A model generated the notes under the pieces. The model made no database searches. It saw nothing but the letters and a program-made list of their open reading frames with translations, and had not been told where the DNA came from. Of a stretch of DNA of 33,158 nucleotides, positions 15,379 through 17,279 are shown piece by piece (the stretch's first letter is position 1; the number at the start of each line of letters is the position of its first letter). Origin of the DNA: Chthonomonadaceae bacterium (GTDB lineage Bacteria; Armatimonadota; Chthonomonadetes; Chthonomonadales; Chthonomonadaceae); NCBI GenBank assembly GCA_027450145.1, contig DAIDKH010000047.1:1-33158 (forward strand). Reading direction: 5' to 3'. The position numbers were made by a program, and so were the translations under genes.

Positions 15379-16350
15379 TTACACACCATTTACTTTGTTA
15401 GTAAAATCATCCAGGTCATCGGCAATGAATTCGTCAATCCGCAGATCAATGTACGGGCCAACCTTGAAATGCCCACCTAGCGCTGTACGAAACATCTGAC
15501 CGCCGTCTCGCAGATTTCTCAGACCAGCGAGGAGGTTTCGCGTTTCCGCCAGTTGGTTCTCTAACGAAACCGATATTACCACAAGATCTGGCGCCTCAAG
15601 TGCAACCAGGTCAATAAAGCTATTTGTCGGTGTATCAGCGCCTACAAAGGTCACCTTCCAACCATCTGCATGAAGAGAATCCGCAAGCATGCGTACGCCA
15701 ACCGAATGCAGGTTACCAGCAACGCAGCCTAGCACCGCATGGCAATCGCGATGCACAACCGGCAAGCATATTTCTGCTACGCGGGCCATCATACGCTCGA
15801 CAATAGCACTTGCTACGTGCTCGCGTGCCTCATCCACCTTACCCTGCTCGTAAAGGTCGCCAATCAAGCGCAGTGCGGGCTGAAACACCTCGAGGTAAAT
15901 CTTTGCCATGCCAAAATTGGCCGACAGCATATTGTTCAGCACCGCCGAACATGCTGCTTCATCCCCCGCGAGGAGATACTGCAGTAGCTGGGACGCAAGG
16001 GCGGACGACTCAATTGACATGCCGTCTGCGCCCGCCCCGTGGTCGGCACTATCTCCTGGCTTTAGTCTCCTCCTTGCACCCCGCGATGCAACTGCATGCA
16101 TTCGTAAAAGAACCTCGGCAAAGGGCGCCTCAAGACTGTAGTATATGAACCTGCCCTCTCGTTCGGAATGAACAACATTTTGCGCTCTCATCTTTGCGAG
16201 GTGATTGCTAAGATTCGGCTGCTTGAGCCCAGTAATCTCGCACAACTCCGAAACAGATTTACGCCCTAATCTTAGTGCCTCAAGTATCGATCGGCGCGAA
16301 GGATCGGCAAGCGCTTGGGCGATACCGTCTGGGTCGTGCATACGAACCAT
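15379..16350 (-). CDS. ArsR-type HTH fused to cobalamin-binding domain (CarH-like regulator)
   Basis: A 323-residue one-component regulator. Residues 10-75 are an ArsR-type winged helix (SVSELCEITGLKQPNLSNHL), residues 112-195 a four-helix cobalamin cap, and 203-320 a B12-binding Rossmann domain. In the cap, Glu177-His178 match the EH of CarH's Wx9EH motif, but the tryptophan is Tyr167. The B12 domain has NLHSVG with His215 as the candidate cobalt ligand (the usual D/E-x-H-x-x-G with Asn), SVSL near 260 and LGG at 291-293. CarH/LitR proteins use a MerR-type domain with the same sensor and release DNA in light. This protein has the sensor on an ArsR domain. It probably responds to cobalamin, light or redox; the target is unknown. 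AGGAG lies 11 bases before the ATG. Confidence 0.85.
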   Translation of the reverse strand: MVRMHDPDGIAQALADPSRRSILEALRLGRKSVSELCEITGLKQPNLSNHLAKMRAQNVVHSEREGRFIYYSLEAPFAEVLLRMHAVASRGARRRLKPGDSADHGAGADGMSIESSALASQLLQYLLAGDEAACSAVLNNMLSANFGMAKIYLEVFQPALRLIGDLYEQGKVDEAREHVASAIVERMMARVAEICLPVVHRDCHAVLGCVAGNLHSVGVRMLADSLHADGWKVTFVGADTPTNSFIDLVALEAPDLVVISVSLENQLAETRNLLAGLRNLRDGGQMFRTALGGHFKVGPYIDLRIDEFIADDLDDFTNKVNGV

Positions 16351-16414
16351 TCTTTGTCATTCTCCTGCTCATAATGGCTCTAGCCAGTCGGTAGGCACAC
16401 GTTGTCAGTTCCAC

Positions 16415-16444
16415 ATTATAACGTTAGAGAATATCAAGTGTCAA
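16415..16444 (-). promoter_or_regulatory. Consensus sigma-70 promoter of the ArsR-B12 gene with overlapping palindrome
   Basis: Read on the minus strand, TTGACA (16439-16444) and TATAAT (16415-16420) are both perfect and 18 bases apart. Initiation would be near 16408, giving a leader of about 58 bases. The palindrome TAACGTTA (16419-16426) overlaps the -10 edge and is a candidate operator for autoregulation. Confidence 0.7.
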
Positions 16445-16535
16445 TAACATGAATACCTCAGGCTCTCCTGCTGCTAGGGTACACTTAACTGAGTTATGAA
16501 GTTATTCAATATCGGACGGACTTCAGGAGCGGCCT

Positions 16536-17279
16536 GTGATAGTACTGCTGGATTTCGACGATACACTTAGCGAATACAGCTCGTTTAACTTGCGATATGT
16601 TGAGACCATGGCCAACCTACTTACCAATGAGTTCGGCGGATCTCCAGACGTATGGTTCGGCAGTACAGCAAAAATGGCACTCGCAATTGAGGCAGACTAC
16701 AGTGCCCGGTTCGTCGGACAGCCCCTCAACGGCTACAACAGATGGCGCGAACACGCCAACCACTTGGCGGCGTCTATGCTCTTTGAATGGGCCGGTTTTT
16801 CCCCACCACCCGATGCTGTGCAAATAGTACGAGATCTTCACGAGGCGGCAGTTACTGCGAGCACTGCGCTATTTCCGGGAATGAGTGAAACGGTCAACAG
16901 CATTTATCAGGCCGGTGTGCCTATCTGTATGGCCAGTGGTAATGACTCTCGGCATATACAATTAGCCATTTCGCAGTTGGACATTGCCACGTACTTCACG
17001 CGCCTTTACGGACCAGATCTCCTAGATTGTGCGAAAGAGGGTCCAGAATTTTACTCACTTATTGCCGCTGATCAGGGTGTGGATCCCCACGAGTTCCTTG
17101 TTGTCGACAATGATCCTACCGCTCTGGAGTGGGCGCAGTCATCTGGAATGAATGTGCTTCATGTCCACCTTCTGACGGCGCCACCCACCAGGCGAGATAT
17201 GTTCGACCTCCCAACGATTACCGACCCAGAATCTGTTAGCCAGATTATTCTAGAACTCTCGCGGGTACAAAGAAGTTAG
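16536..17279 (+). CDS. HAD family hydrolase
   Basis: A haloacid dehalogenase-superfamily phosphatase of 247 residues. Motif I is DFDDT at residues 6-10 with nucleophile Asp6 and acid/base Asp8. Motif II is the Ser in MASGND, motif III the Lys in CAKEGPEFY, and motif IV VVDNDPTALEWA. A helical cap lies between motifs I and II, as in phosphoglycolate phosphatase-like members. The substrate is not evident. The GTG start has GGAG 6 bases upstream. It is divergent from the ArsR-B12 gene and 60 bases ahead of ndk. Confidence 0.85.
   Translation: MIVLLDFDDTLSEYSSFNLRYVETMANLLTNEFGGSPDVWFGSTAKMALAIEADYSARFVGQPLNGYNRWREHANHLAASMLFEWAGFSPPPDAVQIVRDLHEAAVTASTALFPGMSETVNSIYQAGVPICMASGNDSRHIQLAISQLDIATYFTRLYGPDLLDCAKEGPEFYSLIAADQGVDPHEFLVVDNDPTALEWAQSSGMNVLHVHLLTAPPTRRDMFDLPTITDPESVSQIILELSRVQRS

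Follow-up and report, generated by a model that had tools for sequence, protein, structure and literature searches.

An ArsR-family regulator with a CarH-like cobalamin sensor and a predicted photoprotection regulon in Armatimonadota

Results

Domain architecture of the ArsR-B12 regulator

The window, the whole stretch of 33,158 nucleotides analyzed here from a Chthonomonadaceae bacterium, encodes on its minus strand a protein in which an ArsR-type DNA-binding domain precedes a CarH-like cobalamin sensor. The gene, its domains and the residues discussed below are located as follows.

15379..16350, minus strand: ArsR-B12 regulator gene, 323 aa (ORF, Pfam and NCBIfam)
16168..16305, minus strand: ArsR-type helix-turn-helix HTH_5 (PF01022), residues 16-61 (Pfam)
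16186..16224, minus strand: recognition-helix motif KQPNLSNHLAKMR, residues 43-55 (family alignment)
15781..15996, minus strand: four-helix cap B12-binding_2 (PF02607), residues 119-190 (Pfam)
15850..15852, minus strand: Tyr167, at the position of the CarH cap Trp131 (alignment)
15817..15822, minus strand: Glu177-His178, the EH of Wx9EH (alignment)
15469..15741, minus strand: Rossmann cobalamin-binding domain B12-binding (PF02310), residues 204-294 (Pfam)
15706..15708, minus strand: His215, predicted lower axial cobalt ligand (alignment)

The sequence-only reading of this gene had described an ArsR winged helix, a cap with an EH pair and a B12 domain with His215, and Pfam and NCBIfam bear out this order with the residues as named. 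In the 323-aa protein, HTH_5 is matched with an E-value of 1e-12 (48.2 bits against a cut-off of 22 for PF01022), and B12-binding_2 (E 1.1e-13) and B12-binding (E 4.2e-14) both exceed their curated cut-offs. The ArsR/SmtB model NF033788 matches residues 10-77 (E 8.8e-23; 79.9 bits, cut-off 55) and, with PF01022, places the winged helix in the ArsR/SmtB family. The CarH model NF052513 matches the sensor part only, residues 115-267 (E 3e-14), scoring 53 bits where the cut-off is 400, and Pfam found no MerR domain in the protein. When aligned by BLAST with the MerR-CarH of a related genome, likewise only the sensor matched, at 25% identity. As an AlphaFold2 model of the protein had a pLDDT of 41, nothing is claimed from structure.

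Distribution and conservation of the family

Relatives were sought in 291 genomes of the window's phylum, Armatimonadota, and 58 were found, at most one per genome. Four are partial or without the HTH: contig ends truncate those of G011 and G012, and those of G120 and G255 lack the ArsR part. The aligned loci include 54 full-length proteins with both ArsR and B12 domains; since the architecture is an open frame in all 54, the fusion is neither chance nor broken. A scan beyond the phylum used exact 8-residue peptides, which detect close relatives only, and no full-length relative was found on the plasmids searched.

The recognition helix is near-invariant, with Q44, P45, N46, S48, H50 and L51 each present in 54 of 54 proteins. 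In the sensor, E177 and H178 are each kept in 53 and H215 in 52. Residue 167, which the earlier reading had correctly equated with the CarH cap tryptophan (codon 15850-15852), is Tyr in 37 proteins, Trp in 12, Phe in 2 and another residue in 3, and so is aromatic in 51 of 54; Tyr167 is the norm of the family and no oddity of the window's protein. The Wx9EH of CarH is thus not intact, reading Yx9EH in the window's protein. At residue 168, which corresponds to His132 of TtCarH, the family mostly has E, K, M or Q, with no His equivalent. Residue 213 is Asn in 39 of the 54 proteins, Ser in 11 and Glu in 3, and with Asn213 the window's protein has NxHxxG in the CarH B12 motif D/ExHx2G...SxT/V...GG; the motif Gly is conserved in 52 of 54, Ser260 in 49 and GG in 53-54. 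Three of the four segments of the light-responsive cobalamin signature GxxW, EH, GxxH and GxxxP are kept in the window's protein, which has GDLY (W to Y), EH, GNLH and GADTP.

In a tree of the B12 parts, a 100/99 branch separates 34 sampled ArsR fusions from the phylum's own MerR-CarH proteins, of which 17 were included. The fusion would thus seem to go back to a single event, with a sensor not taken from the local CarH, although long branches near the root leave the exact sister of the sensor unsure. The same branch supports the earlier proposal that a CarH-like sensor was independently paired with another DNA-binding module. No description of an ArsR domain joined to a B12 sensor was found in the non-subscription full-text literature searched.

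One of the relatives without the ArsR part (genome G120, L105 5172-6083, minus strand) bears a Cro/CI-type HTH_3 at its C-terminus, after the CarH-type cap and B12 domain; this is a third DNA-binding module on the same sensor in this phylum.

A predicted palindromic operator associated with the ArsR-B12 gene

In upstream regions of the window's order, TATCA and TGATA half-sites 8 bases apart exceed shuffles, and TATCA-N8-TGATA was then searched in ten genomes. A site was found upstream of a fasciclin gene in the window's genome (G000) and in G001, and independently in G027, which belongs to another family. The part common to the fasciclin-gene sites, ACATATCA-N8-TGATATGT, was taken as the predicted operator and searched with at most 2 mismatches, the reversed pattern serving as control. 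All 54 genomes with the ArsR-B12 gene together hold 44 sites against 5 control matches, and the 62 without it hold 10 against 15 (pooled Fisher p 1.1e-5, an optimistic value, since genomes of one genus are not independent samples). Within the window's order, the 12 genomes with the gene give 17 sites and 2 control matches, the 19 without it 5 and 9; in family f14, which played no part in deriving the pattern, the 42 genomes with the gene give 27 and 3, and the 43 without it 5 and 6. The mismatch thresholds were chosen with the first sites already known; the f14 counts, the match in G011 and the own-promoter test and window-wide scan described below are independent of that choice. Across the 3.7 Mb of G011 the operator is matched once, at the promoter of that genome's own ArsR-B12 gene.

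A first guess at the operator, TTGACANNTGATA, returned own promoters and chance matches in coding sequence only, and was discarded. Two other palindromes were seen. One, close to ACATATCGAT-N4-ATCGATATGT, recurs in f14 (L263 1501-1524, at G140:C99:55438; G135:C1:1220; G163:C73:20609), lies 3 bases upstream of an SDR gene in G140 and is probably the site of another regulator. The second is a core-only palindrome (TATCATTATACACTGATA in G000; G000:C2:51880-51897, L113) about 60 bases upstream of an HTH_5 regulator gene; it also occurs in G001, G002 and G005, being kept in two genera, and may be either the operator of that regulator itself or a further target.

Predicted regulon

One predicted target is the fasciclin gene (PF02469). 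With at most 4 mismatches, upstream sites occur in the window's order in 7 of 9 cases among genomes with the ArsR-B12 gene (G000, G001, G002, G005, G010, G012, G027) and at none of the nine fasciclin genes in genomes without it; G003 and G025 yielded no fasciclin site. In f14, fasciclin sites occur in G086, G166, G174, G186, G195 and G196, with a weaker one in G171. The fasciclin gene of G174 lies directly 3' of the ArsR-B12 gene with the predicted operator between them. In G000 an ECF sigma gene comes after fasciclin, and ECF sigma genes have a site in six f14 genomes with the ArsR-B12 gene (G041, G128, G164, G165, G166, G184). The carotenoid gene crtI, identified by TIGR02734 (E 9.7e-153 in G000), has a direct site in G027 and G011, and in G000, G001 and G003 the site precedes the peroxiredoxin gene upstream of it; none was found at crtI in G005, G010 or G012. 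Single sites precede a DUF2867/NAD(P)-binding SDR gene (G027) and a flavin amine-oxidase-type gene (G174). About half of the operator sites are without a clear target, some lying inside coding sequence, and the upstream regions of photolyase and crtB genes gave no convincing site.

Local synteny was set aside as a clue to function; the neighbors of the window's gene (HAD hydrolase, NDK, cydAB) are common only within the genus. In f14 the ArsR-B12 gene is divergent to an acyl-CoA dehydrogenase gene at 30 of 42 loci (for example, L035 7429-8541), with 3-hydroxyacyl-CoA dehydrogenase and Etf genes downstream at some loci. As the main f14 target this neighbor was set aside because the genome-wide sites point elsewhere, and its presence suggests an additional metabolic role in that family. 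In G005 alone, the ArsR-B12 gene adjoins nrdR and a ribonucleotide reductase gene (L032 2526-5885) that by eye resembles the B12-dependent class II type. The window's genome also has a methanol-type corrinoid protein adjoining an mtaB-like gene (G000:C5:17879, L001), so corrinoids are handled there outside the ArsR-B12 regulator as well.

The ArsR-B12 promoter

Two features precede the gene in the window.

16415..16444, minus strand: sigma-70 promoter TTGACA-N18-TATAAT, 12 of 12 consensus matches
16429..16452, no strand assigned: predicted operator, minus-strand sequence TCATGTTATTGACACTTGATATTC, best window match of the target-derived matrix

The matrix was derived from 20 target sites, with own promoters excluded. 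Applied to 52 own upstream regions, it gave p<=0.05 in 23, where 2.6 were expected (combined p 6e-17), and no significant site in the other 29. Over the whole 33-kb window its top match is 16429-16452 at 6.4 bits, the next scoring 3.5. This predicted operator is conserved in two congeners, departs from the consensus at five positions and covers the -35 box of the ArsR-B12 promoter; the region 16400-16450, put forward earlier for a gel shift, takes it in. An operator that overlaps the -35 box of a full-consensus promoter fits repression.

In all three congeners the regulator and a HAD-family hydrolase gene (window 16536-17279, plus strand) diverge from a common promoter region of 185 bases, and the operator could therefore act on the HAD gene as well.

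Discussion

Given that, in dozens of related bacteria, predicted sites lie before genes for carotenoids, photoprotection and stress, the ArsR-B12 protein probably does the job of CarH with another DNA-binding half. Our best explanation, which we consider likely, is an ArsR-family CarH, that is, an autoregulated cobalamin-dependent repressor of photoprotection genes released by light or by loss of the adenosyl group. Cobalamin would be held between the cap and the Rossmann domain, with His215 below the cobalt and Tyr167, Glu177 and His178 above it. In the dark, or with intact AdoCbl, the ArsR winged helices would bind ACATATCA-N8-TGATATGT (half-site TATCA/TGATA) over core promoters and block the regulator's own gene together with fasciclin, ECF sigma factor and crtI or peroxiredoxin-crtI, and in some genomes the DUF2867 SDR or the amine-oxidase-type flavoprotein. 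Photolysis of the Co-C bond by light, or adenosyl loss, would then rearrange the sensor, change the oligomer and free the DNA.

The architecture, conserved ligand residues, operator, regulon and own-promoter match are computed results. The conserved ligands suggest that the protein binds cobalamin, and the position of the operator points to repression rather than activation. That light is the signal we infer from the nature of the targets and kinship with CarH, and from the predicted regulon (crtI, fasciclin, ECF sigma, DUF2867 SDR) light or photo-oxidative stress is the leading reading. AdoCbl photochemistry is uncertain given Tyr167, Asn213 and the missing His132 equivalent.

In genomes of the order without the ArsR-B12 fusion, fasciclin often adjoins a MerR+B12 gene (Pfam-confirmed in G006), and both kinds of regulator therefore appear to serve overlapping genes. 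NF052513, the MerR-CarH model, is found in 11 of 31 order genomes with one overlap with ArsR-B12 (G025; p 0.014), whereas no mutual exclusion was detected across the phylum (p 0.54); with exclusion this weak, strict replacement is not claimed. On a broader reading, the whole lineage runs a CarH-type B12 light response through an ArsR domain, with a Tyr cap in place of the Trp regarded as the mark of AdoCbl photoreceptors, having taken over the fasciclin, crtI and ECF sigma genes that MerR-CarH adjoins in sister genomes. We regard this wider claim as evenly balanced.

The same regulator and regulon might instead answer a signal other than light, such as cobalamin supply, its alkyl form or the redox or oxygen state, in the manner of AerR/PpaA, the photoprotection genes then answering oxidative stress. 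The change of Trp to Tyr, the NxH in place of D/ExH and the absence of an upper-ligand His are in keeping with this, the peroxiredoxin and ECF sigma targets fit redox, and the acyl-CoA dehydrogenase beside the f14 gene adds to it. However, the EH and cap are kept in 53 of 54 proteins as in AdoCbl photoreceptors, and residue 167 is still aromatic in 51. Carotenoid, fasciclin and DUF2867 genes are targets typical of light regulators, and in sister genomes it is MerR-CarH that adjoins fasciclin. A signal other than light is unlikely in our view.

It is also conceivable that the palindrome is the site of another, co-occurring regulator and that ArsR-B12 controls other genes, for example the acyl-CoA dehydrogenase divergent to it at 30 of 42 f14 loci. 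The core-only palindrome before the HTH_5 gene in G000, G001, G002 and G005 implies that another ArsR-like protein may use similar sites, and 29 of 52 own promoters are without a significant site. Set against these points, a matrix derived from the targets picks out own promoters much more often than chance would (combined p 6e-17), the single genome-wide match of G011 falls at its own promoter, regulator, operator and fasciclin are adjacent in G174, and the sites track presence of the ArsR-B12 gene in two separate taxa, which makes a different owner of the sites very improbable. That the protein is a typical ArsR metalloregulator whose B12 domain is inert is scarcely credible despite the strong ArsR/SmtB family score, as the inspected HTH part of the family has no conserved metal ligands or Cys/His cluster (position 37 is V in 48 of 54 and C in 6), residues past position 83, including His85, are gapped in most members, and conservation is much stronger at the B12 ligand residues.

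In the literature reached, those B12 photoregulators whose DNA target is known belong to the MerR type and have a Wx9EH cap. An ArsR version put together independently, and with its own predicted regulon, shows that the sensor can be transferred between DNA-binding folds, and the family lets one ask, as a natural experiment, whether such a sensor can do without the cap Trp. It may also offer a switch for green light whose operator is short and defined, and it links fasciclin proteins to B12-based regulation. Genome mining by the strict Trp signature (GxxW) would miss the family.

Comparison with known B12 regulators

Among solved structures the sensor best matches CtMerR (8jbs, E 3e-17) and a photocobilin (8j2x, 2e-16), followed by corrinoid proteins and TtCarH at about 3e-7. 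CarH is defined by an N-terminal MerR-family DNA-binding domain, a Wx9EH cap, the D/ExHx2G...SxT/V...GG motif, control of carotenoid genes and an AdoCbl-dependent oligomer broken by light (PMC9304148). Like CarH/LitR (TtCarH 5c8d/3whp), the ArsR-B12 protein combines an N-terminal DNA-binding domain with a four-helix cap and a Rossmann B12 domain and has the EH and the lower His. A carotenoid/photoprotection regulon, autoregulation and an operator on the -35 box would also be shared, those on the ArsR-B12 side being predicted; carotenoid-gene regulation is represented by predicted operators only (crtI and peroxiredoxin-crtI in G000, G001, G003, G011 and G027). It differs in having an ArsR in place of a MerR domain, Tyr for the cap Trp, no His132, NxH for D/ExH and a predicted site that is a 24-bp palindrome.

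In TtCarH, His132 is needed for tetramer release, and H132A is mostly tetrameric after light (PMC10442372), yet CtMerR, SasPcob and AbDPcob are light-responsive without a His of this type (PMC11796333). CtMerR (8jbs/8jbt), a light-responsive MerR regulator found by SignatureFinder, shares GxxH, EH and GxxxP of its signature with the ArsR-B12 protein, and both are without His at the His132 position; it differs in its MerR DNA-binding domain and in an intact GxxW where the ArsR-B12 protein has GxxY. Photocobilins (8j2w, 8j2x, 8j2y) contain a related B12 sensor module but have a biliverdin-binding domain, in some an enzyme output, and no HTH. The warning case for Tyr167 is CarA of Myxococcus xanthus, a CarH-like, MerR-type protein that kept EH, lost the cap Trp and is B12-independent (PMC9304148); in the ArsR-B12 protein, by contrast, the Trp is replaced by another aromatic residue and the rest of the sensor is conserved. 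AerR/PpaA are likewise cobalamin-binding regulators of photosynthesis or pigment genes, but act via a partner such as CrtJ/PpsR (PMC9144470), whereas the ArsR-B12 protein has its DNA-binding domain in the same chain.
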